Part shown: one piece after another, positions 18,156 to 32,296 of the stretch
Layout: every line of letters starts with the position of its first letter
Numbering within the stretch: position 1 is the stretch's first letter
DNA from: Pseudomonas sp. 7SR1
GTDB taxonomy: Bacteria > Pseudomonadota > Gammaproteobacteria > Pseudomonadales > Pseudomonadaceae
Length of the DNA: 64,000 nt
Direction of reading: 5' to 3'
Assembly (NCBI RefSeq): GCF_900156465.1
Contig: NZ_LT707064.1
Span: 3,318,501-3,382,500 of the forward strand
The notes under the pieces: generated by a model
The model's database searches: none
What the model saw: only the letters and a program-made list of their open reading frames with translations
Told to the model about the DNA's origin: nothing
Made by a program: the position numbers and the translations under genes

Positions 18156-18171
18156 CAATCATATGATGATT
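18156..18171. promoter_or_regulatory. Putative GntR operator upstream of the gntR-lactonase operon
   Basis: CCAATCATATGATGATT contains the perfect palindrome ATCATATGAT (18158-18167) and the looser pair AATCAT/ATGATT. A near copy, ATCATACGAT in CCAATCATCATACGATATG, lies upstream of the ABC importer at about 20919-20937. The shared sequence suggests one regulator, most likely the adjacent GntR protein. Confidence 0.55.
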
Positions 18172-18208
18172 AGCGTGAGCCTCCATCGAGAGTGCTCATG
18201 GGGTGTTC

Positions 18209-18955
18209 ATGTCCAGCAGTTATCATGCATCGACCGTCGATTGGCTGGGGGGCTGGATCGCCGCCGGCCAGGTCAAGCCTGGGCAGACCATCAAGGTCGA
18301 GGCGGACCTGGGCGAGCAATTGGGTGTCAGCCGTACGGTCATTCGTGAGGCGATCAAGACCCTGGTGGCCAAGGGCATGCTGGAGGTCGGGCCGAAAGTC
18401 GGTACGCGGGTATTGCCGGTGCGGCGCTGGAACCTCTTCGATCCACAGGTGGTCGGCTGGCTGTCGCGCAGCGGCCTGCCGGAGAACTTTGTGGACGACT
18501 TGCTGGACCTGCGCCGGACCATCGAGCCCATGGCGGTGCGGTGGGCCTGCGAGCGGGCGACCGCCGAACAGGTAGAGGCCATCCGTCTGGCCTACCATGC
18601 ACTGGAGCGGGCCGTGGACAGCGGCGCGGACTACAATCTGGCCGACCAGTTTTTCCATGAGTGCATCCTCGCCGCCAGTCATAATCAATTCATCGAACAA
18701 ATGATCCCGGCCCTGGGTGCGTTGCTGGCGGTGTCGTTCGAGGTGTCGGCTGCCGACCCGGACGAACTGCGCCGCACCTTGCCTATCCACAAGGACATCG
18801 CTGAAGCCATCGCCGCTCGTGATGCGGCGCGTGGCGTCTGGGCCTGCATGACCTTGATCGACAATGCCGACCTGGCCATCAAGCGGTTTTACCCTGATGT
18901 GATGGCCGGTCGTACCGACACCGCCGGGCAAGCCGGAAACAGGAGGATTCAGTGA
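18209..18955 (+). CDS. FadR/GntR-family transcriptional regulator
   Basis: A 248-residue GntR regulator. The winged helix is at about 1-75, with LGEQLGVSRTVIREAIKTLV as the recognition region, and an FCD-type ligand domain follows with conserved D and H residues (LADQFFHE, HKDIAEAI). Such proteins often bind sugar acids or lactones. ATG 18209 is preferred to GTG 18203, though the ribosome binding site is weak. The stop overlaps the lactonase start by one base. It probably controls the sugar dehydrogenation and import genes here. Confidence 0.85.
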   Translation: MSSSYHASTVDWLGGWIAAGQVKPGQTIKVEADLGEQLGVSRTVIREAIKTLVAKGMLEVGPKVGTRVLPVRRWNLFDPQVVGWLSRSGLPENFVDDLLDLRRTIEPMAVRWACERATAEQVEAIRLAYHALERAVDSGADYNLADQFFHECILAASHNQFIEQMIPALGALLAVSFEVSAADPDELRRTLPIHKDIAEAIAARDAARGVWACMTLIDNADLAIKRFYPDVMAGRTDTAGQAGNRRIQ

Positions 18956-19827
18956 TGTGGAAGGCTGTGACGGAACATAGGGCGAAACTGGGCGAGGGCC
19001 CTTTCTGGGACGAGCCGACCCAGGCGCTCTACTGGGTCGATATCGCGGGCAGGCAGGCCTTGCGCTTGATCGGCGCCAATGTGCAGATCTGGCAGATGCC
19101 CGAGCACGTATCCGCCTTCATCCCGACCCAGAGAGGTGATGCCCTGGTGACGCTGAGCAGCGGCGTCTACCGTCTCGACCTGGAGTCGCCAGGGCTGGAA
19201 CCTCGGCTGACGTTGCTGTGCATGGCCGATCCCCAGCCGGGCAACCGGGCCAACGAAGCTCGTTGTGACGCGCTGGGCCGGCTCTGGCTCGGCACGATGC
19301 AGAACAACATCGGTGAAGACGGCGAAGACCTGCCCATCGAGCGCCGCTCGGGTGGCCTGTTCCGGGTGGGGGGCGATGGCCGGGTCATGCCGTTGCTGCG
19401 GGGGCTGGGCATTCCCAACACCCTGCTATGGAGCCCCGACGGTACCACGGTGTATTTCGGCGAAAGCCTCGATGGCACGCTGTACCGACATTTCATCTAC
19501 CCCGATGGCAGCCTGGCGCCGGCCGAGGTCTGGTTCGGTCCTCACTCGCGGGGCGGTCCCGACGGTTCGGCGATGGACGCCCGCGGCTATATCTGGAACG
19601 CGCGCTGGGACGGCAGTTGCCTGTTGCGGTTGAGTCCGCAGGGACATATCGACCGGGTCATCGAGCTGCCGGTCAGCCGCCCGACCAGTTGCGTATTTGG
19701 CGGGGAAGACCTCAAGACCCTGTACATCACCAGTGCGGCAAGCCCGCTGGGTCATCCGCTGGACGGTGCAGTGCTGTCCATGCGGGTGGATGTGCCGGGT
19801 ATACCGTGTACACGGTTTGCGGGTTAA
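18955..19827 (+). CDS. SMP-30/gluconolaconase-family aldonolactonase
   Basis: A six-bladed propeller metal enzyme that hydrolyses sugar lactones to aldonates. LGEGPFWDEP at about 12-21 supplies the metal-binding Glu, NEARCDALGRLWLGTM near 100-115 the Asn and Asp region, and SPDGTTVYFGES near 160-171 further family sequence, with GGPDGSAMDARG following. The 290-residue product starts at ATG 18955, one base into the gntR stop, after AGGAGG. Substrate is inferred from context (galactono- or arabinono-lactone). The gene end contains the palindrome ACCGTGTACACGGT. Confidence 0.88.
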   Translation: MWKAVTEHRAKLGEGPFWDEPTQALYWVDIAGRQALRLIGANVQIWQMPEHVSAFIPTQRGDALVTLSSGVYRLDLESPGLEPRLTLLCMADPQPGNRANEARCDALGRLWLGTMQNNIGEDGEDLPIERRSGGLFRVGGDGRVMPLLRGLGIPNTLLWSPDGTTVYFGESLDGTLYRHFIYPDGSLAPAEVWFGPHSRGGPDGSAMDARGYIWNARWDGSCLLRLSPQGHIDRVIELPVSRPTSCVFGGEDLKTLYITSAASPLGHPLDGAVLSMRVDVPGIPCTRFAG

Positions 19828-19887
19828 ATCCCAAAATATGGGATGTAAATATATATATTGAGATTGTTCGGCGGTCGGGTTTATAGT
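19828..19887 (+). promoter_or_regulatory. Operator-promoter module A (ATCCC-N7-GGGAT, TTGAGA-N18-TATAGT)
   Basis: ATCCC (19828-19832) and GGGAT (19840-19844) form an inverted repeat with a seven-base AT spacer. Thirteen bases later comes TTGAGA (19858-19863), then 18 bases, then TATAGT (19882-19887). The same elements with the same spacings occur before dgoK at 27034-27093. The operator sits just upstream of the -35. An IclR-type regulator encoded at 31493 is a candidate binder. Confidence 0.75.
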
Positions 19888-19939
19888 CGGTTCCATCAGC
19901 AACATGCACTCACACTAAAAAAACAACACAGGTGAAGTG

Positions 19940-20059
19940 ATGCAACGATCTGCCCTCGCGTGCCTCGGTGGCACAAGCGACTCTCCGTTCCAGCAATGCC
20001 AAAGGCCGGTCATCCCTGGATGCCCGGCCTTTGGCACGCCTTCGAACCGGGGGGCCTGA
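19940..20059 (+). CDS. Possible 39-residue leader ORF upstream of the SDR gene
   Basis: ATG 19940 follows CAGGTGAAGTG, the same ribosome binding context that precedes dgoK, and opens a short frame beginning MQRSALACLGGTSDSPFQQC and ending at TGA 20057-20059. It is in the same frame as the SDR gene and stops three bases before that gene's ATG. A strong stem (19997-20036) lies inside it. It could be a regulatory leader peptide or the remnant of an earlier start region. No family match is recognised. Confidence 0.4.
   Translation: MQRSALACLGGTSDSPFQQCQRPVIPGCPAFGTPSNRGA
19997..20036. repeat. Perfect 13-bp inverted repeat in the SDR leader
   Basis: TGCCAAAGGCCGG (19997-20009) is exactly complementary to CCGGCCTTTGGCA (20024-20036), with a 14-base loop. 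It lies 27 bases before the SDR start codon and inside the short leader ORF. No T-run follows, so it is not a simple terminator. It could modulate translation or be an inserted repeat. Confidence 0.65.
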
Positions 20060-20062
20060 GCG

Positions 20063-20881
20063 ATGGCCCAACCGCTTTGCTTGCCACCGGTGCCCGAGCC
20101 ACCCAAGGGCGAGCGATTGAAGAACAAGGTGGTGCTGTTGACCGGTGCCGCCCAAGGGATCGGCGAGGCGATCGTCGCCGCGTTCGCTTCGCAGCAGGCG
20201 CGGTTGGTGATCAGCGATATCCAGGGCGAAAAGGTCGAGCAGGTCGCCGCTCAGTGGCGGGAGCGCGGGGCGGATGTGCAAGCATTGAAAGTCGATGTGG
20301 CGAAACAGCATGACCTGCACGCCATGGCACGCCGCGCCGTGGAACTGCACGGACGCATCGATGTGCTGGTGAATTGCGCTGGCGTCAATGTGTTCCGCGA
20401 TCCACTGCAGATGAGCGAAGAAGACTGGCGTCGCTGTTTCGCCATCGACCTGGACGGCGCCTGGTATGGCTGCAAGGCGGTGTTGCCGCAGATGCTGGAA
20501 CAGGGCGTGGGCAGCATCATCAACATCGCTTCGACCCACTCGTCCCACATCATTCCCGGCTGTTTTCCTTACCCGGTGGCCAAGCACGGCTTGCTCGGCC
20601 TGACCCGCGCCCTGGGCATCGAATATGCGCCCAAGGGCATACGTGTCAATGCCATCGCACCAGGTTATATCGAGACCCAACTGAACGTCGATTACTGGAA
20701 CGGCTTTGCCGACCCCCATGCCGAACGCCAGCGGGCGATGGACTTGCATCCGCCCCGGCGCATCGGCCAGCCGATCGAAGTGGCAATGACAGCCGTGTTC
20801 CTGGCCAGCGACGAAGCACCTTTCATCAACGCTTCATGCATCACCCTCGATGGTGGACGTTCGGTCATGTATCACGACTGA
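20063..20881 (+). CDS. SDR-family sugar dehydrogenase (galactose/arabinose type)
   Basis: A 272-residue short-chain dehydrogenase. TGAAQGIGEAI near residues 28-38 is the nucleotide-binding loop, VNCAGVN near 105-111 and the catalytic S-Y-K set (INIASTHSSH, YPVAKHG) follow, then LDGGRSVMYHD at the end. Between an aldonolactonase gene and a sugar ABC importer, it most likely oxidises an aldose such as galactose or L-arabinose to the lactone. ATG 20063 follows a G-rich stretch. It is driven by module A, which matches the dgoK control region. Confidence 0.82.
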   Translation: MAQPLCLPPVPEPPKGERLKNKVVLLTGAAQGIGEAIVAAFASQQARLVISDIQGEKVEQVAAQWRERGADVQALKVDVAKQHDLHAMARRAVELHGRIDVLVNCAGVNVFRDPLQMSEEDWRRCFAIDLDGAWYGCKAVLPQMLEQGVGSIINIASTHSSHIIPGCFPYPVAKHGLLGLTRALGIEYAPKGIRVNAIAPGYIETQLNVDYWNGFADPHAERQRAMDLHPPRRIGQPIEVAMTAVFLASDEAPFINASCITLDGGRSVMYHD

Positions 20882-20918
20882 ATGTCCGGGTTGGCAGGTG
20901 GTTATGCTGTCTGTCATC

Positions 20919-20938
20919 CAATCATCATACGATATGAC
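20919..20938. promoter_or_regulatory. Putative GntR operator upstream of the sugar ABC importer
   Basis: CCAATCATCATACGATATGA contains ATCATACGAT (20924-20933), nine of ten matching the palindrome ATCATATGAT before gntR, with the same CCAATCAT flank. It is 115 bases upstream of the binding-protein start. The promoter itself could not be fixed. Confidence 0.5.
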
Positions 20939-21052
20939 TATTTGGATCTATGCTGTAGCAACACGATTTGACGGCCCGGCCTGCGCAGCACCACCCCGTA
21001 GGGGAGCAGAACCGAGGCCTTGGCTTTCAATAAAAAAAACAAGGAGTCAGCT

Positions 21053-22057
21053 ATGAATCATCGTCGTGGGATTCGTTCCCTGTGTCGCGCCGCCCTGGCC
21101 GTTACCGCGTTCACTTTCGGCAGCAACCTGCTGGCCGCTGAAGAAGTGAAAATCGGCTTCCTGGTCAAGCAGGCCGAGGAGCCCTGGTTCCAGACCGAAT
21201 GGGCGTTCGCCGAGAAGGCCGGTAAGGACCGAGGCTTCAAAGTGATCAAGATCGCCGTGCCTGACGGCGAGAAGACCCTCTCGGCCATCGACAGTCTTGC
21301 CGCCAATGGTGCCAAGGGCTTCGTCATCTGCCCGCCGGACGTGTCCCTGGGTCCGGCGATCATGGCCAAGGCCAAGCTCAACGATCTGAAAGTCATCGCG
21401 GTGGATGACCGTTTCGTCGATGCCAACGGCAAGTTCATGGAGGATGTGCCGTACCTGGGCATGGCCGCATTCGAAGTGGGCCAGAAGCAGGGCGCCGCCA
21501 TGGCCGCCGAAGCGAAGAAACGCGGGTGGGACTGGAAAGACACCTACGCGGTGATCAACACCTACAACGAACTGGACACTGGCAAGAAACGCACCGACGG
21601 TTCGGTCGATGCCCTGAAGAAAGCCGGCATGCCCGAGGACCACATCCTCTTCTCGGCCCTCAAGACCCTCGACGTACCCGGCAGCATGGACTCCACCAAC
21701 TCCGCGCTGGTGAAACTGCCCAGCGCCGCGAAGAACCTGATCATCGGTGGCATGAACGACAACACGGTGCTGGGTGGCGTACGCGCTACCGAAGCCGCCG
21801 GATTCAAGGCCGCCAACGTGATCGGGATCGGCATCAACGGTACCGACGCCATCGGCGAATTGAAGAAACCGGAGAGCGGCTTCTTCGGCTCGATGCTGCC
21901 AAGCCCGCACATCGAAGGCTACAAGACCGCCGAGATGATGTTCGAGTGGGTCACCACCGGCAAGGAGCCACCGAAGTACACCGCCATGGATGAGGTGACG
22001 CTGATCACTCGGGAGAACTTCAAGCAGGAGCTGGAAAAGATCGGCCTGTGGAATTGA
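21053..22057 (+). CDS. araF: Sugar ABC transporter periplasmic binding protein (AraF-like)
   Basis: A 334-residue periplasmic protein that captures L-arabinose or a related aldose such as galactose. The signal peptide ends near LLAA/EEVKIGFLVK (about 29). The mature part carries EPWFQTEW near 43-50, AVDDRFVD and NTYNELDTGKKRTDG, which are AraF-like ligand-pocket regions. AAGGAGTCAGCT precedes ATG 21053. First gene of an importer operon; a large hairpin separates it from araG, which would keep its mRNA more abundant. Confidence 0.88.
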   Translation: MNHRRGIRSLCRAALAVTAFTFGSNLLAAEEVKIGFLVKQAEEPWFQTEWAFAEKAGKDRGFKVIKIAVPDGEKTLSAIDSLAANGAKGFVICPPDVSLGPAIMAKAKLNDLKVIAVDDRFVDANGKFMEDVPYLGMAAFEVGQKQGAAMAAEAKKRGWDWKDTYAVINTYNELDTGKKRTDGSVDALKKAGMPEDHILFSALKTLDVPGSMDSTNSALVKLPSAAKNLIIGGMNDNTVLGGVRATEAAGFKAANVIGIGINGTDAIGELKKPESGFFGSMLPSPHIEGYKTAEMMFEWVTTGKEPPKYTAMDEVTLITRENFKQELEKIGLWN

Positions 22058-22073
22058 TGGCCGGTTGATTCAA

Positions 22074-22128
22074 AAGCGGCGCAGGTGTCCTGTCCCCAGC
22101 TTCGGACAGGACCTCGACGGCGCCGCTT
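22074..22128 (+). promoter_or_regulatory. Large intercistronic hairpin between araF and araG
   Basis: AAGCGGCGC (22074-22082) pairs with GCGCCGCTT (22120-22128), and inside it AGGT(GT)CCTGTCC (22083-22095) pairs with GGACAGGACCT (22104-22114). No T-run follows. This fits a 3' stabilising or partial-terminating structure that raises binding-protein expression over the ATPase and permease. Confidence 0.75.
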
Positions 22129-22152
22129 GATCTCTGTGAGTTCGAGGTGGTT

Positions 22153-23697
22153 ATGCAAGCGCAGACAGCGACACAACAACACAACACCGGCGCCAGCCTG
22201 CGGTTCAATGGGATCGGCAAGGCCTTTCCTGGCGTGCAGGCGCTGGCCAATATCAGTTTCGTTGCCCATCCGGGGCAGGTCCATGCCTTGATGGGCGAGA
22301 ACGGCGCGGGCAAGTCCACGTTATTGAAGATTCTCGGTGGCGCCTACATTCCCAGCAGTGGCGAGTTGCAGATCGGCGAGCAGACGATGGCGTTCAAATG
22401 CACCGCCGACAGCATCGCCAGCGGTGTGGCGGTGATCCACCAGGAATTGCACCTGGTGCCGGAAATGACCGTGGCGGAAAACCTGTTCCTGGGGCACCTG
22501 CCGGCCCGTTTCGGCCTGGTCAATCGCAGCGTGCTGCGCCAGCAGGCGCTATCGTTGCTCAAGGGCCTGGCCGATGAAATCGATCCGCTGGAGAAAGTCG
22601 GTCGCCTGTCTCTCGGCCAGCGGCAACTGGTGGAGATCGCCAAGGCCTTGTCCCGGGGCGCCCATGTCATTGCGTTCGACGAGCCCACCAGCAGCCTTTC
22701 GGCTCGGGAAATCGATCGTTTGATGACGATCATAGGGCGCCTGCGGGACGAGGGCAAAGTGGTGCTGTACGTCAGCCACCGCATGGAAGAAGTGTTCCGT
22801 ATCTGTGACGCGGTGACGGTGTTCAAGGACGGTCGCTACGTGCGTACCTTCGAGGACATGAGCGAGTTGACCCATGACCAGTTGGTGACTTGCATGGTCG
22901 GTCGCGATATCCAGGACATCTATGACTACCGCCCGCGGGAGCGGGGTGACGTGGCGCTGCAAGTGAAAGAGCTGCTGGGGCCGGGCCTGCGCGAGCCGGT
23001 GAGTTTCCAGGTGCACCAGGGCGAGATCCTCGGCCTGTTCGGGTTGGTCGGCGCCGGTCGTACCGAGTTGCTGCGTTTGCTCAGCGGCCTCGAACGCCAG
23101 AGCGAGGGGAGCCTCGTCCTGCACGGCCACGACTTGAAATTGCGTTCTCCAAGGGATGCCATCGCCGCCGGCGTGCTGCTCTGTCCGGAAGACCGCAAGA
23201 AGGAAGGCATCATTCCGTTGGGCAGCGTGGGCGAGAACATCAACATCAGCGCCCGTGCGTCCCATTCCACCCTCGGCTGCCTGCTGCGGGGCGATTGGGA
23301 ACGAGGCAATGCCGACAAGCAGATCAAGGCGCTGAAAGTGAAGACGCCGACAGCCGGGCAGAAAATCATGTACCTGTCCGGTGGCAATCAGCAGAAGGCG
23401 ATCCTCGGTCGCTGGCTGTCGATGCCGATGAAGGTGCTACTGCTGGACGAGCCGACACGTGGCATCGATATCGGGGCCAAGGCCGAGATCTACCAGATCA
23501 TCCACAACCTGGCGGCCGATGGCATCGCCGTGATCGTGGTGTCCAGCGACCTGATGGAAGTGATGGGTATTTCCGACCGAATCCTGGTGCTCTGCGAAGG
23601 GACCTTGCGTGGCGAACTGCCCCGTGACCAGGCCAATGAATCCAACCTGCTGCAACTGGCGCTGCCACGCCAACGCGTTGCCGACGCGGCGAACTGA
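22153..23697 (+). CDS. araG: Sugar ABC transporter ATP-binding protein (AraG-like)
   Basis: A 514-residue double ATPase of the CUT2 sugar importer class. The first domain has GENGAGKST (near 51-59) and signature LSLGQRQLVE. The second has the degenerate P-loop GLVGAGRTE and signature LSGGNQQKA, with DEPTRGIDIG after it. ATG 22153 is preferred over GTG 22147. It energises uptake through the AraH-like permease 9 bases downstream. Confidence 0.93.
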   Translation: MQAQTATQQHNTGASLRFNGIGKAFPGVQALANISFVAHPGQVHALMGENGAGKSTLLKILGGAYIPSSGELQIGEQTMAFKCTADSIASGVAVIHQELHLVPEMTVAENLFLGHLPARFGLVNRSVLRQQALSLLKGLADEIDPLEKVGRLSLGQRQLVEIAKALSRGAHVIAFDEPTSSLSAREIDRLMTIIGRLRDEGKVVLYVSHRMEEVFRICDAVTVFKDGRYVRTFEDMSELTHDQLVTCMVGRDIQDIYDYRPRERGDVALQVKELLGPGLREPVSFQVHQGEILGLFGLVGAGRTELLRLLSGLERQSEGSLVLHGHDLKLRSPRDAIAAGVLLCPEDRKKEGIIPLGSVGENINISARASHSTLGCLLRGDWERGNADKQIKALKVKTPTAGQKIMYLSGGNQQKAILGRWLSMPMKVLLLDEPTRGIDIGAKAEIYQIIHNLAADGIAVIVVSSDLMEVMGISDRILVLCEGTLRGELPRDQANESNLLQLALPRQRVADAAN

Positions 23698-23706
23698 GAG
23701 GTAATC

Positions 23707-24675
23707 ATGACCATTCAAAACAATGCACTGCCGACGGCGCGCAAACCCCTGGACCTGCGGCGTTTCCTGGACGACTGGGTCATGCTGCTGGCGGCCATCG
23801 GGATCTTCGTGCTCTGCACCCTGATGATCGACAACTTCCTGTCTCCGCTGAACATGCGGGGCTTGGGCCTGGCGATTTCCACCACGGGCATCGCCGCGTG
23901 CACCATGCTGTATTGCCTGGCGTCCGGGCACTTCGACCTGTCGGTCGGCTCGGTGATCGCCTGCGCCGGCGTGGTGGCGGCGGTGGTGATGCGTGACACC
24001 AACAGCGTTTTCCTGGGCATCGGCGCGGCGTTGGTGATGGGGCTGATCGTCGGCCTCATCAACGGTATCGTCATCGCCAAGCTGCGGGTCAATGCGTTGA
24101 TCACTACCTTGGCGACCATGCAGATCGTCCGGGGCCTGGCCTACATCTTTGCCAATGGCAAGGCGGTGGGTGTGTCCCAGGAAGCGTTCTTCGTGTACGG
24201 CAACGGCCAACTGTTCGGCGTTCCGGTACCGATCCTGATCACCATCGTCTGCTTCCTGTTCTTCGGCTGGCTGCTGAACTACACCACCTATGGGCGCAAC
24301 ACCATGGCCATCGGTGGCAACCAGGAGGCGGCCTTGCTGGCGGGGGTCAATGTCGACCGCACCAAGATCATCATCTTCGCCGTGCATGGCGTGATCGGTG
24401 CGCTGGCGGGAGTGATCCTGGCGTCGCGCATGACTTCCGGCCAACCGATGATCGGCCAGGGGTTCGAGCTCACGGTGATCTCCGCCTGCGTCCTGGGTGG
24501 GGTGTCGTTGAGCGGTGGCATCGGCATGATTCGCCACGTCATCGCCGGGGTACTGATCCTGGCGATCATCGAGAACGCGATGAACCTGAAGAACATCGAC
24601 ACGTTCTACCAGTACGTCATCCGTGGCTCGATCCTGCTGTTGGCGGTGGTCATCGACCGGATGAAGCAACGCTGA
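23707..24675 (+). CDS. araH: Sugar ABC transporter permease (AraH-like)
   Basis: A 322-residue inner-membrane permease of the BPD_transp_2/RbsC type with about nine or ten hydrophobic segments. LRVNALITTLATMQIVRGLA near 123-142 and AIGGNQEAALLAGVNVDRTK near 201-220 are the conserved cytoplasmic coupling region. It forms the channel dimer with the AraG ATPase. Last gene of the operon. A MITE-like repeat begins nine bases after its stop. Confidence 0.92.
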   Translation: MTIQNNALPTARKPLDLRRFLDDWVMLLAAIGIFVLCTLMIDNFLSPLNMRGLGLAISTTGIAACTMLYCLASGHFDLSVGSVIACAGVVAAVVMRDTNSVFLGIGAALVMGLIVGLINGIVIAKLRVNALITTLATMQIVRGLAYIFANGKAVGVSQEAFFVYGNGQLFGVPVPILITIVCFLFFGWLLNYTTYGRNTMAIGGNQEAALLAGVNVDRTKIIIFAVHGVIGALAGVILASRMTSGQPMIGQGFELTVISACVLGGVSLSGGIGMIRHVIAGVLILAIIENAMNLKNIDTFYQYVIRGSILLLAVVIDRMKQR

Positions 24676-24683
24676 GGTTTGCC

Positions 24684-24824
24684 AGGCTCCGTACGAAGAG
24701 TCTTGAGACAAAGGTCAGGCAACGGGAGAACAGCCGAGCAAGCGCAGAGTGCTGGAGTACATGAGCATGGCGAGGCCGTTTTCAACGCTGCATGGATGAG
24801 TATCAAAGGCTTTTCGTAGAGCCT
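24684..24824. repeat. MITE-like intergenic element, copy 2 (141 bp)
   Basis: Left end AGGCTCCGTACGAAGAGTC and right end GGCTTTTCGTAGAGCCT are imperfect terminal inverted repeats. The two ends and the internal TTTCAACGCTGC segment match, in reverse orientation, the element at 13276-13366. The middle, about 50 bases longer, is unique to this copy. No open frame of note. Confidence 0.7.
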
Positions 24825-24862
24825 GGGAAAAGGGTGGCTCGACCTCATCGTCAGTTGACCCA

Positions 24863-24892
24863 ACGCCATCGCGAGCCGGCTCGCGATGGCGT
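24863..24892. terminator. Perfect 30-bp palindrome, REP-like, between convergent genes
   Basis: ACGCCATCGCGAGCC is followed immediately by its complement up to 24892. The core CATCGCGAGC is the arm sequence seen in the REP units at 29959 and 34441. It lies between araH and the convergent Rho_N gene, where it may end or protect both transcripts. No T-run on either side. Confidence 0.6.
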
Positions 24893-24903
24893 GTTGCCGC
24901 TTA

Positions 24904-25284
24904 CTAGCCGGCCTTGCGCAGCGCTTGGATCAGCTCCTCCTTGCGCATCTTCGATCGGCCGGGAATGTTCTTCGCCCGGGCCTCCTTCATCAGGCTATCC
25001 ACGGTCTGCGCCTCATGGGAGGCCTTGCTGGTACGCGGATGTCCTTCGCGGGTCTTGGCGGCGCGTCGGGCCGATTCCTTGCGGTCGGTTTTCTTCTGCT
25101 CGGCGGGTTTTTTCTTGCCCGACCCGCCGGAGCGTTCGCCGCCGCCGGACTGCTTGTTCACCGTTGCCCAGGCCCGCGCCTCGGCCTGGCCTTCGGACAC
25201 ACCTTTTTGCTCATAGCTCTCTTCGATGTGTTCGGCCTTGCGTTTCTGCTTGTCGGTGTACTTGTCTTTGCTTCCACGAGGCAT
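24904..25284 (-). CDS. Rho_N-domain basic protein (often labelled plasmid stabilization protein)
   Basis: A 126-residue, highly charged Lys/Arg/Glu-rich protein. The first part (KDKYTDKQKRKAEHIEESYE) resembles ChaB/stress-type helical proteins, the middle is a lysine- and serine-rich linker, and the last 35 residues (LMKEARAKNIPGRSKMRKEE) form a Rho N-terminal-like helical motif that may bind nucleic acid. The plasmid stabilization label used for this family is historical; function is unknown. AGGAGGAATTGGC precedes the ATG. Confidence 0.75.
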   Translation of the reverse strand: MPRGSKDKYTDKQKRKAEHIEESYEQKGVSEGQAEARAWATVNKQSGGGERSGGSGKKKPAEQKKTDRKESARRAAKTREGHPRTSKASHEAQTVDSLMKEARAKNIPGRSKMRKEELIQALRKAG

Positions 25285-25314
25285 GCCAATTCCTCCTCAT
25301 CTGTCGCTCAGCGG

Positions 25315-25659
25315 TTATTGGCTGGCGGCGCCACCTTCCGAGCCCGATCCCCCGGTGGTGGTCTTGGAACCCACGCCGGTCTCGGCGTTGTCGGGGGTGT
25401 TGGTGTCGGGGGTGTTCAAGCCACCCTGGCGCCCGGTGTCGTTGCCCTGCACGCGTGGATCGGTCCCGGTGGCCGGAGGCTGGCCGTTGTTCAAGGTGCC
25501 GCCTGTGCCGTCGGTGTTCAACTTGGGCAGGCCCTGGGTCGCCGGTGAGTTGGGTGCTTGTACCGGGTCGGTGGGGCCGGTTCCGGAGGTGGAAGCCGCC
25601 AGGGCCACCGAGGAAAGCAATGCGGCAAATGTGAATGCAGTCAGCCTTGCAGTGATCAT
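25315..25659 (-). CDS. Small secreted Gly/Thr/Pro/Asn-rich protein
   Basis: A 114-residue product with a clean signal peptide (MITARLTAFTFAALLSSVALA, 21 residues, cut before AST). The mature part is low-complexity, rich in Gly, Thr, Pro, Asn and Asp, with no cysteine and no recognised domain. Start: ATG 25659 follows GGAGG, while the longer frame to 25761 has no ribosome binding site and would bury the signal. It lies 30 bases downstream of the Rho_N gene's start, same strand. Unknown function. Confidence 0.7.
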   Translation of the reverse strand: MITARLTAFTFAALLSSVALAASTSGTGPTDPVQAPNSPATQGLPKLNTDGTGGTLNNGQPPATGTDPRVQGNDTGRQGGLNTPDTNTPDNAETGVGSKTTTGGSGSEGGAASQ

Positions 25660-25826
25660 GGTGTCGCCTCCATTTTTCGGATACTTGCCTGATCTTGGGC
25701 TGCCCGGGATAGGCGTTGGTGCCGTATGGGCGACGAATGGCGTTTTGAAGGGCGGGATCATTGAGGTGTGACGAGCGCTGCGTAGCGGCTTAGTATGGCG
25801 CTTTCCATTGGCTACAAGGGCCGTTC

Positions 25827-26309
25827 ATGTCGATCGAGATCCGTCCCGCGCAACCCAGCGATGCGCCTCAAATCCTTGCCTTCATCACCGAGTTGGCCGA
25901 CTACGAAAAAGCCCGCCACGAAGTCATCGCCAGCGTCGCCGACATCGAGCGCAGCCTGTTCAGCGAAGGCGCGACCGCCCACGGGCTGATCTGCCTGCGC
26001 GACGGTGTGCCGATCGGTTTCGCGGTGTTTTTCTTCAGCTATTCGACCTGGCTGGGCAGCAATTGCCTGTACCTGGAAGACTTGTACATCACGCCTGAAC
26101 AGCGCGGCGGCGGTGCGGGCAAGACCTTGCTGCGCCACCTGGCAAAGATCGCCTGCGACAACGACTGCGGTCGCTTCGAGTGGAGCGTGCTGGAATGGAA
26201 CACGCCGGCCATCGAGTTCTACAAGTCCCTCGGCGCGCAACCCCAGGAGGAATGGGTGCGCTACCGAATGGACGGCAAGGTGCTGCGGGACTTCGCCCAA
26301 GGCAATTGA
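25827..26309 (+). CDS. GNAT-family N-acetyltransferase (diamine acetyltransferase-like)
   Basis: A 160-residue acetyl-CoA-dependent enzyme. LYLEDLYITPEQRGGGAGKTLL near 82-103 contains the acetyl-CoA pyrophosphate loop (RGGGAG), and WSVLEWNTPAIEFYKSLGAQ near 121-141 is the motif B region typical of spermidine/diamine-type GNATs. The substrate, probably a small amine or amino acid, is inferred. Convergent with the glutathione transferase gene six bases away. Confidence 0.85.
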   Translation: MSIEIRPAQPSDAPQILAFITELADYEKARHEVIASVADIERSLFSEGATAHGLICLRDGVPIGFAVFFFSYSTWLGSNCLYLEDLYITPEQRGGGAGKTLLRHLAKIACDNDCGRFEWSVLEWNTPAIEFYKSLGAQPQEEWVRYRMDGKVLRDFAQGN

Positions 26310-26314
26310 ACGCC

Positions 26315-26947
26315 TCAGCAATAGGTGTCGCCTGCGTATTCGGCAAACCCCGGTCGCTGTTCCAGTCGCTTGCAATAGGCGGCCACTGCCGGGTAGTCCG
26401 GGCGTTCCATGGGCGTCTGGCGCCAGCGGTGCACCGACAGCCCGATGAGCACGTCCGCGAGGGAAAAGTCCTTGCCGGCCACGTAGGCGCCGGTGCGGTT
26501 CAACTGCTGTTCAAGCAGCCCCATCTTCTCGTTCCACCCTTTGATACCGGCAGCGATGCGCTGCGGGTCCTGGAAATCCGGGTTCTTGCGTACCAGGGCG
26601 TGGAATGCATAACCCCATGACGGGTTGAGTTCCGTCGCCTGCCAATCCATCCATTGCTCGATTCGTGACCGGGCTGCAGGTTCGGCAGGCAGCAAATCAT
26701 CGCGCCCTTGCTTGCCTGCCAGGTAGCGGCAGATGGTGTTCGATTCCCAGAGCACGCCGTTCTCGTCGATGATCACCGGCACCTGGGCGTTGGGGTTCAG
26801 GGCCAGGAATGCAGGGTCGTGGGTGGAATTGAAACCGATGCCCCAATCTTCACGGTCGTAGGGGATCTCAAGTTCCTGACAGGTCCACAGCACTTTTCTG
26901 ACATTGATCGAGGAGGTGCGACCAAGGATTTTCAGCAGTTGGCCCAT
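26315..26947 (-). CDS. Glutathione S-transferase family protein
   Basis: A 210-residue cytosolic GST. The N-terminal thioredoxin-like domain begins [20 protein letters not shown], with the glutathione-contact cis-proline in NAQVPVI and ESNTICRYL (about 54-73), followed by an all-helical C-terminal domain with [13 protein letters not shown]. Start: ATG 26947 follows AGGGA; the longer frame to 27028 lacks similarity. It is divergent from dgoK, whose control region lies between them. Confidence 0.88.
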
Positions 26948-27033
26948 AAACGTTTTCCCTGAGTGGCTAAGGCATCCGATCAGGAAACTTAGCAGGGTCG
27001 TTGGCGGATAGCGATGGGCTTTAATCAAAGCTT

Positions 27034-27093
27034 ATCCCTATATATGGGATCAATATTTATATATTGAGATTTTGCTGCGCCCAGGTTTATAGT
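27034..27093 (+). promoter_or_regulatory. Operator-promoter module B of the dgo operon
   Basis: ATCCC (27034-27038), N7, GGGAT (27046-27050), 13 bases, TTGAGA (27064-27069), 18 bases, TATAGT (27088-27093). Arms, spacings and promoter hexamers equal module A at 19828-19887, and similarity continues to the ribosome binding site (AACAGGTGAAG). The likely regulator is the IclR protein encoded at the end of this cluster. Confidence 0.78.
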
Positions 27094-27132
27094 CCGTTCA
27101 CTCACTGCCAAAAAACAGAACAGGTGAAGCGG

Positions 27133-28104
27133 ATGCAGGCGCAATTGATCGCGCTCGATTGGGGGACCACCTCATTACGGGCATACAAACTCGCCGACGG
27201 AGGCGAGGTGCTCGAACAGCGCTCGTTATCCTCGGGAATCATGCAATTGCCTGCCGGGCCGCGAACGGTGGCCGGGCAGGCCTGCACGGACGGTTTCGAA
27301 CTGGCGTTCGACGAGGCCTGCGGCGACTGGCTCGACGCGCAACCAGGCCTGCCCGTGATCGCCTGCGGCATGGTCGGCAGCGCCCAGGGCTGGCGCGAGG
27401 CACCTTACTGCGACACGCCAGCCGATGTCGCCCAGCTCGGGCACTCCCTGCAAACCATCCGCAGCCTGCGTGGTGTCGATGTACACATCGTGCCGGGGGT
27501 GATCCAGCGTTCGCGGCTGCCCAATGTCATGCGCGGCGAAGAGACCCAGGTGCTGGGCGCCTTGCACAGCCTGCCGAACGAAGCCGTGCTGATCGGCCTG
27601 CCTGGCAGCCACTCCAAATGGGTGGAAGTGGCTGACAGCTGCATCGTGCACTTCGACACCTTCATGACCGGCGAGATCTTCGCCGTGCTCAGCGACCACA
27701 GCATTCTCGGCCGTACCCAGCAACGAGGCGTGGCTTTCGACGCTCAGGCCTTTGACCGGGGCGTGCACGTGGCCTTGTCGACGGATGGCCAGGCCGGCCC
27801 GTTATCCACCGTGTTCAGTGCCCGCAGCCTGGGCCTGACCGGCGAACTTGCCGCCGGTGCCCAGGCGGACTACCTGTCCGGCCTGTTGATCGGCCACGAA
27901 CTGACGGCACTGGCCGCCGTGCAGCGCCAACGCCGCAACAGCGTCCATCTGCCGACGGTGGTGCTGATTGGCAATTCCCAACTCTGTGCCCGTTACCAAC
28001 GGGCCCTCGACGCCTGCGGTTTCGCCCGGGTGACCCTGGCCGAACAGGCCACCGAACGTGGTTTGTGGCAGTTGGCCGTGGCGGCCGGGCTGCTTGGCCG
28101 CTGA
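27133..28104 (+). CDS. dgoK: 2-dehydro-3-deoxygalactonokinase DgoK
   Basis: Phosphorylates 2-keto-3-deoxygalactonate at C6. The 323-residue product starts IALDWGTTSLRAY (about 5-17), the phosphate-binding loop of this acetate/sugar kinase fold, and carries GLPGSHSKWVEV and FMTGEIFAVLSDHSILG, DgoK family sequences. ATG 27133 follows AGGTGAAG. The operon continues with dgoA 20 bases later. Confidence 0.92.
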   Translation: MQAQLIALDWGTTSLRAYKLADGGEVLEQRSLSSGIMQLPAGPRTVAGQACTDGFELAFDEACGDWLDAQPGLPVIACGMVGSAQGWREAPYCDTPADVAQLGHSLQTIRSLRGVDVHIVPGVIQRSRLPNVMRGEETQVLGALHSLPNEAVLIGLPGSHSKWVEVADSCIVHFDTFMTGEIFAVLSDHSILGRTQQRGVAFDAQAFDRGVHVALSTDGQAGPLSTVFSARSLGLTGELAAGAQADYLSGLLIGHELTALAAVQRQRRNSVHLPTVVLIGNSQLCARYQRALDACGFARVTLAEQATERGLWQLAVAAGLLGR

Positions 28105-28124
28105 ACCTGACTGGAGGTCTGACA

Positions 28125-28745
28125 ATGCTCACACAAGCCCTGGCGCAAAACGGGTTGATCGCGATTCTGCGCGGTCTGCGTCCCCAGGAAGCGACAGCCA
28201 TCGGCCACGTCCTGTACGAGGCCGGATTCCGAGTCATCGAAGTGCCGCTCAACTCCCCCGAACCGTACGAAAGTATTCGCATCCTGCGCAGTACCTTGCC
28301 CGCCGATTGCCTGATCGGTGCCGGTACGGTGCTCACACCGGAGCAGGTTGCCCGGGTGAAAGCCGCTGGCGGCCAGGTGATCGTCATGCCTCACAGCGAT
28401 CCGAAGGTGCTGCGGGCGGCGAAAGCGGCGGGGCTGTACCTGTCGCCCGGGGTCGCCACCCCGACCGAGGCGTTTGCCGCGTTGGCCGAAGGCGCCCATG
28501 TATTGAAGATGTTTCCCGCCGAGCAAATGGGCCCGGCGGTGGTCAAGGCCTGGCTCGCGGTATTGCCGGCCGGGACCGTGCTGGTGCCAGTGGGGGGAAT
28601 CACACCCGACAACATGACGCCGTTCGTCGAGGCGGGCGTGAAGGGCTTCGGCCTCGGCTCCGGTCTGTTCAAACCAGGCCTGACGGCCGATGAGGTGGCG
28701 GTGCGCGCCAAGGCATACGTGGCCGCGTGGAAAGCCTTGAACTGA
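28125..28745 (+). CDS. dgoA: 2-dehydro-3-deoxy-6-phosphogalactonate aldolase DgoA
   Basis: Class I aldolase that splits KDPGal into pyruvate and glyceraldehyde 3-phosphate. 206 residues, the size of E. coli DgoA. GLIAILRG near 10-17, VIEVPLNSP near 38-46 with the catalytic Glu, [11 protein letters not shown] near 67-77, and the Schiff-base lysine in [10 protein letters not shown] (about 129). GGAGG precedes ATG 28125. Because it also resembles Eda, the kinase and dehydratase neighbours decide the assignment. Confidence 0.92.
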
Positions 28746-28794: not shown

Positions 28795-29943
28795 ATGAAA
28801 ATCACCAAATTGTCCACGTTTATCGTTCCGCCGCGCTGGTGCTTCCTCAAGGTCGAAACCGACGAAGGCGTCACTGGTTGGGGCGAGCCCGTGGTCGAGG
28901 GGCGCGCCCACACGGTGGCGGCTGCCGTCGAGGAATTGTCCGACTACCTGATCGGCAAGGACCCACGCAATATCGAAGACATCTGGACCGTGCTCTATCG
29001 CGGCGGCTTCTACCGGGGCGGAGCGGTGCACATGAGTGCCCTGGCCGGTATCGACCAGGCGTTGTGGGATATCAAGGGCAAGGCCCTGGGCGTGTCGGTC
29101 AGCGATCTGCTGGGCGGCCAGGTGCGCGACAAGATCCGCGTCTATTCATGGATCGGCGGCGACCGGCCGGCGGACACCGCACGCGCCGCCAAGGAGGCCG
29201 TGGGGCGGGGGTTCACCGCAGTGAAGATGAATGGCACCGAAGAACTGCAGTTTCTCGACACGTTCGAAAAGGTCGACCTGGCCCTTGCCAACGTCGCGGC
29301 GGTGCGGGACGCGGTGGGGCCGAACGTCGGCATCGGCGTGGATTTCCACGGGCGGGTCCACAAGCCCATGGCCAAGGTGCTGATGAAGGAACTCGACCCC
29401 TACAAGCTGATGTTCATCGAGGAGCCGGTGCTCAGCGAAAACTACGAAGCGTTGAAGGAACTGGCGCCGCTGACCAGCACGCCGATCGCCTTGGGCGAGC
29501 GGCTGTTTTCCCGCTGGGATTTCAAGAGGGTACTCAGCGAAGGCTACGTGGACATCATCCAGCCGGATGCCTCCCATGCCGGCGGCATCACCGAAACCCG
29601 CAAGATCGCCAACATGGCCGAAGCCTACGACGTGGCGCTGGCGCTGCACTGCCCGCTGGGCCCCATCGCCCTGGCGGCGTGCCTGCAACTGGATGCGGCC
29701 TGCTACAACGCGTTCATCCAGGAACAGAGCCTGGGTATCCACTACAACGAGAGCAACGACCTGCTGGACTACATCAAGGATCCGCGGGTGTTCGACTACG
29801 AGAAAGGCTTCGTGAAAATCCCCAATGGCCCGGGCCTGGGTATCGAGATCAACGAGGAATACGTAATCGAGCGTGCGGCCGTCGGCCATCGCTGGCGCAA
29901 TCCGATCTGGCGTCATGCCGACGGCAGTTTCGCCGAATGGTAA
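28795..29943 (+). CDS. dgoD: D-galactonate dehydratase DgoD
   Basis: Enolase-superfamily enzyme that dehydrates D-galactonate to 2-keto-3-deoxygalactonate. At 382 residues it equals E. coli DgoD in length, and the Mg ligands and acid/base residues fall at the same numbers: VDFHGRVH gives Asp183 and His185, FIEEPV gives Glu209, and [11 protein letters not shown] gives Glu235. [10 protein letters not shown] carries the second catalytic histidine. It is the third gene of the dgo operon. Confidence 0.95.
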
Positions 29944-30122: not shown

Positions 30123-31433
30123 ATGCAAGCGCACACCCTGAGCGCGCAAGCGTCGTTGGTGACGCCCAGCCGCAAGCGTTTTTTCATCATGGTCCTGCTG
30201 TTCATCACGGTGGTGATCAACTATCTGGACCGCAGCAACCTGTCCATTGCCGCCCCCGCACTGACCAGTGACCTGGGCATCGACCCGATCCATGTCGGGC
30301 TGATCTTCTCGGCGTTCGGCTGGACCTACGCCGCCATGCAGATCCCGGGTGGCTGGCTGGTGGACCGGGTGCCGCCGCGCATTCTCTACAGCGTCGCGCT
30401 GCTGCTATGGTCGGTGGCCACGGTCATGCTGGGGTTCGCCGCCAGCTTCATCGCCTTGTTCGTGCTGCGCATGGCCGTCGGCGCCCTGGAAGCGCCGGCC
30501 TATCCGATCAACAGTCGTGTCGTCACTACCTGGTTCCCTGAGCGCGAGCGGGCCACGGCCATCGGTTTCTATACCTCCGGACAGTTCGTCGGCCTGGCAT
30601 TCCTGACGCCGGTGCTGGCCTGGCTGCAGCACACGTTCGGCTGGCACATGGTGTTCGTGGTGACCGGCGCGGTGGGGATTCTCTGGGCGGTGATCTGGTA
30701 CGCGGTGTATCGCGAACCACGTGACTTCAAAGGCGCCAACGCCGCAGAGATCGAGCTGATTCGCGAAGGCGGCGGGTTGGTGGATATCCAGGCCGAGACT
30801 GCCCGAGTGAAGGCGAAATTCAGCTGGGCCGACCTGGGGATCGTGCTGACCCAACGCAAGTTGTGGGGCATTTACCTGGGGCAGTTCTGCCTCAACTCCA
30901 CGCTGTGGTTTTTCCTCACCTGGTTCCCCACTTACCTGGTGAAATACCGTGGCATGGATTTCATCAAGTCCGGCCTACTGGCGTCGTTGCCGTTCCTTGC
31001 GGCATTTGTCGGCGTGCTGTGCTCCGGTTTCTTCTCCGACTGGCTGATTCGTCGCGGCGCCACGGTAGGATTCGCACGCAAGTTGCCGATCATCGGTGGG
31101 TTGCTGATTTCCACTTCGATCATCGGCGCCAACTTTGTCGAGTCGACGCCGCTGGTGATCGCGTTCCTGGCCCTGGCATTCTTCGGCAATGGCCTGGCGT
31201 CGATCACCTGGTCGCTGGTTTCCACCCTGGCGCCGGCGCGATTGCTCGGGTTGACCGCAGGGGTGTTCAACTTCATCGGTAACCTGGCGGCCATCGCGAC
31301 GCCGATCGTCATTGGCTTCCTCGCCAGCGGCGATTCGTTTGCCCCGGCCATCACCTATATCTCTGTCCTGGCCCTGGCTGGCGCGCTGTCCTACATCCTG
31401 CTGGTGGGGAAGGTCGAGCGCATCGAGTTGTAG
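30123..31433 (+). CDS. dgoT: MFS transporter, D-galactonate type (ACS family)
   Basis: A 436-residue proton symporter with twelve predicted membrane segments. LFITVVINYLDRSNLSIAAP near 27-46 is the first helix with the ACS-family NYLDR motif; GGWLVDRVPPR near 78-88 is the loop 2-3 motif. Placed after dgoKAD, it most likely imports galactonate. The assignment within sugar-acid transporters (galactonate versus glucarate) rests on the neighbours. Confidence 0.85.
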   Translation: MQAHTLSAQASLVTPSRKRFFIMVLLFITVVINYLDRSNLSIAAPALTSDLGIDPIHVGLIFSAFGWTYAAMQIPGGWLVDRVPPRILYSVALLLWSVATVMLGFAASFIALFVLRMAVGALEAPAYPINSRVVTTWFPERERATAIGFYTSGQFVGLAFLTPVLAWLQHTFGWHMVFVVTGAVGILWAVIWYAVYREPRDFKGANAAEIELIREGGGLVDIQAETARVKAKFSWADLGIVLTQRKLWGIYLGQFCLNSTLWFFLTWFPTYLVKYRGMDFIKSGLLASLPFLAAFVGVLCSGFFSDWLIRRGATVGFARKLPIIGGLLISTSIIGANFVESTPLVIAFLALAFFGNGLASITWSLVSTLAPARLLGLTAGVFNFIGNLAAIATPIVIGFLASGDSFAPAITYISVLALAGALSYILLVGKVERIEL

Positions 31434-31492: not shown

Positions 31493-32296
31493 ATGCAGCA
31501 AGACGATCCAAAAATCACCAAGGACGCCGCGCCTACTGGCACGCAAACCCTGCTGCGCGGCCTGGGTGTGGTCCATGCGGTTGCCAGTGGCGCCCGGGAT
31601 CTGAAGGAAATCGCCCGGCTGATCGGTACCACCCGCAGCACGACCCATCGCCTGGCCAGTTGCCTGGTGGACGAGCGGTACCTGCGAGTGGTGCCGCAGG
31701 TGGGTTATCTGCTGGGACCGAAACTGATCGAGCTGGGTTTCCAGGCCCGGGAGGAATTGCCCCTGGTGAGCCTGGCGGGACCGTATCTGGACGAGCTGTC
31801 GGCGTTGACCGGTGACACCGTGCACCTGGCGATTCGCGAGGGCGACGAGGTCTTGTACCTGCTGAAGAATCCGGGACGCAATGGTCCGGAGATGCGCTCG
31901 CGGGTGGGGCATCGCATGCCGTTGGCGCGTACGGGGATCGGCAAGGCGCTGATGCTGGACGACACTGAGGAGCAATGGCAGCGCTTGTATGAAATCAGCT
32001 TGCCGGCAGTAGGAAAAAATCAGTTCTGGCCGCAGCATCAGGAGCAATCCTGGGAGCAGTTCCAGCAGCGGATGCGGGAGTACGTGGCGGGGGGCTACGC
32101 GTTCGACCTGGAGGACAACGAACCGTCGATTCGTTGTGTGGCGGCACCGATTCGCGACGCCGGCAAGCGTATTGTCGCCGGTATCAGCATCGCCAGCACC
32201 GTGCCGTACATGCCATTGGAAAAAATGGCCGAGCTGATTCCCCTGGTCAAAGGGGTCACAGCCCGGCTGTCGGCGGAGCTGGGCGCCAAGGTCTGA
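31493..32296 (+). CDS. IclR-family transcriptional regulator
   Basis: A 267-residue regulator with the N-terminal winged helix (TLLRGLGVVHAVASGARDLK, then LIGTTRSTTHRLASCLVDE) and a C-terminal GAF-like effector domain (RVGHRMPLARTGIGKALML, APIRDAGKRIVAGISI). It ends the galactonate cluster and is the best candidate to bind ATCCC-N7-GGGAT upstream of dgoK and the SDR gene, although IclR proteins may activate or repress. Confidence 0.87.
   Translation: MQQDDPKITKDAAPTGTQTLLRGLGVVHAVASGARDLKEIARLIGTTRSTTHRLASCLVDERYLRVVPQVGYLLGPKLIELGFQAREELPLVSLAGPYLDELSALTGDTVHLAIREGDEVLYLLKNPGRNGPEMRSRVGHRMPLARTGIGKALMLDDTEEQWQRLYEISLPAVGKNQFWPQHQEQSWEQFQQRMREYVAGGYAFDLEDNEPSIRCVAAPIRDAGKRIVAGISIASTVPYMPLEKMAELIPLVKGVTARLSAELGAKV

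Follow-up and report, generated by a model that had tools for sequence, protein, structure and literature searches.

In Escherichia coli, galactonate genes of the dgo operon are controlled by a dedicated regulator, DgoR, a repressor of the GntR/FadR family (PMC7674646). We analyzed a similar dgoKAD-type galactonate operon with a dedicated regulator in Pseudomonas sp. 7SR1. It lies within a window of 64,000 nucleotides (NZ_LT707064.1, positions 3,318,501-3,382,500; assembly GCF_900156465.1; genome of 6.09 megabases, Mb), in which two copies of an operator-promoter module, A and B, stand ahead of a sugar dehydrogenase gene and of dgoK, respectively. Unlike in E. coli, the regulator proposed here is an IclR-family protein, encoded at 31493; the cluster also encodes a DgoR relative, whose sites are different.

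Tandem-site regulons of the IclR family, as described by Suvorova and Gelfand (2021; PMC8222616), resemble the arrangement reported here in their small number of operons, autoregulation, two-turn site spacing and sugar-acid genes, but the half-sites found here (ATCCC/GGGAT and TGAGAT) fit the consensus of that group poorly. The PcaU, PobR and HmgR sites covered by the same source are likewise built from a palindrome plus a further box; however, they serve aromatic pathways and their third box is a direct half-site, whereas the additional element here is more like a weak palindrome. Neither "galacton-" nor "dgo" occurs in the main text of PMC8222616. In a search of titles and abstract openings in the open-access literature, none of the matches listed linked an IclR protein or the module motif to Pseudomonas genes for galactose or galactonate. 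Another member of the IclR family, KdgR (PRK15090), answers to a 2-keto-3-deoxy sugar acid. The protein encoded at 31493 was considered as a KdgR and rejected, with a PRK15090 score of 103.9 against a cut-off of 275.

Two copies of a palindrome-promoter module

Both modules are read from the forward strand and comprise the following elements.

19828-19844, + strand: module A site 1, palindrome ATCCC-N7-GGGAT, centre 19836 (sequence and pattern search)
19850-19864, + strand: module A candidate site 2, IclR-type and weaker, ending in TGAGAT, over the -35 box (predicted from a conserved block)
19858-19863, + strand: module A putative -35 box, TTGAGA
19882-19887, + strand: module A putative -10 box, TATAGT
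19930-19937, + strand: AGGTGAAG, ribosome binding site ahead of a leader reading frame (A side)
27034-27050, + strand: module B site 1, palindrome ATCCC-N7-GGGAT (sequence and pattern search)
27056-27070, + strand: module B candidate site 2, over the -35 box (predicted as for module A)
27064-27069, + strand: module B putative -35 box, TTGAGA
27088-27093, + strand: module B putative -10 box, TATAGT
27122-27129, + strand: AGGTGAAG, ribosome binding site of dgoK (B side)

In each module, 13 bases separate the palindrome from TTGAGA and 18 bases separate TTGAGA from TATAGT. This geometry, the spacings and the shared ribosome-site sequence had been reported in a preliminary description of the locus, and all were confirmed. 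From the palindrome through the -10 box, A and B are identical at 48 of 60 bases without gaps; the next best place for module A on either strand of the window reaches 29 of 60. The likeness starts at the palindrome, with only 4 of 20 bases matching directly upstream, and it extends by eye into the transcribed leaders, which share CACTCAC, an A-rich stretch, ACAGGTGAAG and ATGCA.

The palindrome alone is weak evidence and was set aside as such. Allowing up to one mismatch, it was found twice in the window against an expectation of 2.37, and six of its eight exact copies in the genome (one for the reversed-pattern control) have no TTGAGA behind them. The composite with TTGAGA occurs in this genome only as A and B, and neither a strict nor a relaxed pattern found a third copy. 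The genome-wide search proposed at the outset returned eight palindromes and no further module of that kind. We defined the strict pattern as the palindrome followed after 11-15 bases by TTGAGA, with the same pattern reversed as control, and applied it to a set of 149 Pseudomonas genomes, one per species. It matched in 59 genomes, and the spacing was 13 in every match listed, though 11-15 was permitted; the reversed control gave no match in any of the 149. The preliminary judgment that the likeness of the two modules is far beyond chance stands for the palindrome-promoter composite.

A relaxed pattern with up to three mismatches matched in 87 of the 149 genomes, at most twice in each (reversed control, 0), and the union of the two patterns places the module in 89. 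In the loci read, it lies ahead of dgoK, of the sugar dehydrogenase and uptake genes, or of both. A wider regulon was ruled out by the maximum of two matches per genome under both patterns. Beyond the genus set, 148 genomes representing 19 genera of the family were searched with the strict pattern, and 18 of them matched, 5 in the same genus and 13 in two others (3 genera in all). Across 369 genomes of the class, the Pseudomonas sp. 7SR1 genome was the sole match, and just one other genome in that set belongs to the same family.

An IclR-family protein as the candidate reader of both modules

Module B precedes an operon whose last gene encodes the IclR-family protein.

27133-28104, + strand: dgoK, 2-keto-3-deoxygalactonate kinase
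28122-28745, + strand: dgoA, 2-keto-3-deoxy-6-phosphogalactonate (KDPGal) aldolase
28795-29943, + strand: dgoD-type dehydratase gene (named by place and conservation)
30123-31433, + strand: MFS transporter, D-galactonate transporter subfamily
31493-32296, + strand: iclR, IclR-family regulator, candidate reader of modules A and B

Both domains of the protein score above cut-off (HTH_IclR, 42.7 bits against 22; IclR_C, 103.9 bits against 24). Comparison of genomes makes it probable, in our assessment, that this protein reads modules A and B. Relatives with at least 49% identity are encoded in 94 of the 149 genomes (the copy in G080 is split). The module accompanies IclR in 89 genomes and is found without it in none. 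The five IclR genomes without a pattern match have weak modules, before dgoK in G023, G085 and G146 (L116, L131, L138) and, by eye, before iclR in G147 and G001 (L324, L325). The last two loci contain the most distant IclR relatives (53% identity), with a two-site module before iclR; a DgoA relative is the sole dgo product encoded beside iclR there, and the DgoK relatives (~40%) are encoded on other contigs.

The loci in which dgoK and iclR have come apart are informative. In 21 genomes the two genes are unlinked, lying more than 1 Mb apart on one contig in 8 and on different contigs in 13; G035 and G056 (probable contig breaks) and G001 and G147 (distant DgoK) were left out of this set. We read 19 of the 21 dgo loci, and all 19 keep the module (L140, L144, L148, L295-L310), with neither iclR nor gntR within the fetched stretch. 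Thirteen of the 21 iclR loci were read. Eight of them show the dehydrogenase gene with a module ahead and iclR downstream (L120, L126, L130, L134, L135, L153, L154, L155), three end at a contig edge (L119, L121, L124), and two have neither operon near iclR (L122 and L128, from G032 and G052).

Outside the genus, the module lies directly before iclR in all 13 matching loci, where iclR heads an iclR-dgoKAD operon and its product is 50-54% identical to the protein of the window. The site therefore precedes the regulator's own gene and operon in every one of these loci; in the window, iclR ends the operon behind module B. Moreover, in a set of 80 loci selected through IclR, independently of the motif, the region upstream of dgoK was present in 75, and 74 of these scored above 50 and the last 32.7, against a maximum of -35.7 for shuffled sequences. 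The earlier prediction that one protein co-regulates early and late steps is supported by these comparisons, as is its choice of the IclR protein as candidate, through co-occurrence, the unlinked loci and the other genera.

Several observations weigh against this assignment. DgoK relatives were found in 95 of the 149 genomes (three of them weak). The presence of IclR and that of DgoK differ in one genome only, so that co-occurrence alone cannot tell an IclR site from another dgo-tied site. The Fisher value for the co-occurrence, 2e-35, ignores kinship among genomes that are related. In addition, the left palindrome arm is weakened in all eight dehydrogenase-side modules of the unlinked genomes, and the right arm is weakened in L116, L127 and L131. 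The near-identical distribution of IclR and DgoK would also suit some other reader, an unlinked or global protein, which we consider improbable: other genera have the module immediately ahead of iclR, and in G017 a LysR-type gene, beside choline-sulfate-like genes, is the one regulator seen near the unlinked dgo operon (reading frames of at least 180 amino acids, judged by eye, at one of the 19 unlinked dgo loci read).

Module A raises the question of a different reader, since it sits between a gntR-lactonase gene pair and the dehydrogenase-araFGH genes.

18157-18173, + strand: AATCATATGATGATTAG, candidate GntR operator, conserved at the promoter of gntR
18203-18955, + strand: gntR, GntR/FadR-family regulator, best PDB match E. 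coli DgoR (7C7E)
18952-19827, + strand: SMP-30/gluconolactonase-family lactonase (domain search)
20063-20881, + strand: SDR-family sugar dehydrogenase, substrate predicted
20918-20934, - strand: second GntR-like site, between the dehydrogenase gene and araF
21053-24675, + strand: sugar ABC transporter, comprising a substrate-binding protein (AraF by position), AraG and AraH

The gene at 18203 is the regulator gene nearest module A, its product has the E. coli galactonate repressor DgoR (7C7E) as its best PDB match, and 48 of the 50 genomes that encode a GntR relative of about 70% identity or more also have a pattern match (the other two, G023 and G085, have a weak module). We nevertheless rejected the GntR protein as module reader, and regard this alternative as the least probable of those weighed here. 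A close relative is absent from 41 of the 89 genomes with the module (in G021 the contig ends before the place of gntR), and no module was found at the scan cut-off in any of eight GntR-lactonase-araFGH loci that lack the dehydrogenase gene (L112, L114, L115, L118, L291-L294). The protein also has distinct conserved sites of its own. All 37 rows, from 36 of the 50 GntR genomes, have the motif AATC(A/G)TATGATNATTAG, or a close form of it, at the promoter of gntR. A GntR-like site ahead of araF was seen in all 15 loci with gntR and in none of 15 without it, the gap before araF being mostly short in the latter; in L142, the araF-side site is present and the contig ends before gntR. Within the Pseudomonas sp. 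7SR1 genome, the sole copy without mismatch is at gntR, a copy with two mismatches lies between the dehydrogenase gene and araF, and two further copies (one and two mismatches) lie elsewhere.

Judged from these sequence patterns, the DgoR-like GntR protein appears to be a second regulator, with sites of another kind at the promoter of gntR and at araF, and two regulators probably govern the sugar transporter genes. Because DgoR is the best PDB match, annotation by similarity would tempt one toward the wrong regulator. One further arrangement was seen at module A: in L107 (G107) and in L066 the dehydrogenase gene behind it is reduced to a 3' remnant, and both modules, gntR and iclR are kept.

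Module anatomy, origin and mode of action

The anatomy of the module was derived from 76 distinct modules above the score cut-off, drawn from the 80 IclR-chosen loci. Positions 9-10, 12-16 and 22-37 are nearly invariant, and the upstream flank and the promoter spacer mostly lie near or below 1 bit. The block at 22-37 is far longer than a -35 box requires, and in distant relatives it is palindromic, as ATCACA-TAT-TGAGAT in several g6 loci and, perfectly, as TTCTCA-TAT-TGAGAA in L324. For these reasons we interpret the module as two sites in tandem rather than one palindrome plus a promoter. The site centres, at module positions 9 and 30, are 21 base pairs (bp) apart, as in module A of the window, within the 18-22 nucleotides (mainly 19-21) that are common between IclR-family site centres according to PMC8222616. 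Less favorable to an IclR site pair are the variable outermost bases of the palindrome and the poor symmetry of site 2 within Pseudomonas. Against the published IclR consensus GKTYCRYW3-4RYGRAMC, compared by eye, the inverted symmetry fits and several bases do not.

The same conservation bears on whether a specific regulator is needed at all. The modules might simply be strong sigma-70 promoters, each with an AT-rich element upstream, that owe their likeness to selection or recent duplication. An AT-rich stretch does lie ahead of the -35 box, the promoter boxes are near consensus, and one palindrome arm is weakened in some loci. We hold this to be very improbable: the GC arms are conserved beside near-random flanks, and there are at most two matches per genome, always ahead of these genes in the mapped loci. 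The 14-base spacers argue in the same direction. Among the 11 genomes with both modules, spacer identity is 0.63 between A copies and 0.49 between B copies, and A and B resemble each other little more within a genome (0.47) than between genomes (0.41).

On these spacer identities, recent duplication or conversion of A and B was rejected. Of the two origins first suggested for the identical geometry, duplication of the control region or strong selection on it, the former would have to be old. Since other genera have the module at an iclR-dgo operon, the distribution suggests that the dehydrogenase-side module arose later than the dgo-side one.

Given the IclR protein as reader, it likely acts as a repressor. 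The -35 and -10 boxes each match the sigma-70 consensus at 5 of 6 positions, and a site 2 on the -35 box of such a near-consensus promoter favors repression. Transcripts are predicted to start near 19894 and 27100, 7 bases after the -10 boxes. Strong site 1 would be centred near -58 and the weaker site 2 near -37, and with centres two helical turns apart a tetramer (two dimers) could bind the two sites together from the same side of the helix. When sugar is absent, the IclR protein would cover the -35 box and repress the dehydrogenase gene and, through it, the sugar uptake genes, together with dgoKAD, the transporter gene and its own gene. Galactonate or 2-keto-3-deoxygalactonate would then presumably release it.

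The IclR protein might instead be an activator of the PobR/PcaU type, reading a palindrome and an external direct half-site. This variant of the same assignment is possible, yet unlikely. Site 1 lies upstream of the -35 box, which also suits an activator, and IclR-family activators exist. GAGAT repeats GGGAT directly 20 bp further on, invariantly in the 76-module set, and PcaU, PobR and HmgR have third boxes of this kind (PMC8222616). In distant relatives, however, GAGAT reads as part of a palindrome, and in L324, the most distant, site 2 is a perfect palindrome and not a lone half-site; the near-consensus promoter and the position of site 2 over the -35 box also speak against activation. According to PMC6927180, P. 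fluorescens SBW25 dgoKAD under its native promoter allows slow growth of P. putida KT2440 on galactose, with a lag of 52 h. A functional SBW25 promoter in KT2440 argues against an activator and suggests that the promoter works without IclR, if KT2440 lacks this protein. Some caution applies to this result: that KT2440 lacks IclR is suggested by its lack of growth on galactonate, the SBW25 construct may hold only part of the module, and the growth was slow, with its long lag.

The sugar route and the leader behind promoter A

The gene set of the cluster looks like a De Ley-Doudoroff-type route. Its sugar is probably galactose, with the genes behind module A starting the breakdown and those behind module B finishing it. 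AraG and AraH exceed their NCBIfam cut-offs and AraF does not. No galactose or arabinose dehydrogenase was named among the 60 of 665 PDB matches listed for the dehydrogenase. A glutathione-S-transferase-like gene, judged by eye (26315-27028, - strand), diverges from dgoK, and module B, which occupies the region between them, could act on this gene as well.

Promoter A is followed by a leader ahead of the dehydrogenase gene.

19940-20059, + strand: 39-codon leader frame, downstream of promoter A and ahead of the dehydrogenase gene
19998-20035, + strand: hairpin of 38 bases inside the leader frame

Most relatives read have a leader frame of 30-56 codons, and L040 has no leader. In 29 of 37 rows, drawn from 34 genomes, at least four T follow the hairpin, which then resembles an intrinsic terminator; the copy in the window has no T run. 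In the genome, the hairpin core occurs once exactly and once more with three mismatches, so the hairpin is not a common repeat. The leader and hairpin of A may form an attenuator. Directly ahead of both ribosome sites are A-rich stretches (19917-19929 and 27110-27121), resembling the Hfq/Crc target AANAANAA, with a fit that is exact at A (AAAAACAA) but not at B in the window. We can only speculate that promoter A has a second layer of control, a doubtful proposal in which translation of the leader senses carbon status and the IclR protein senses the pathway. Leader translation would open the hairpin, so that RNA polymerase could read through, and Hfq/Crc, by blocking the leader on preferred carbon sources, would leave the hairpin to end transcription.

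Taken together, the analysis proposes which protein regulates the galactose/galactonate route across much of Pseudomonas (89 of 149 genomes) and defines a precise candidate operator of two sites for it, distinct from the sites of the DgoR-like product of the neighbouring gntR gene. A promoter of about 60 bp that answers to sugar could, moreover, serve the engineering of Pseudomonas.

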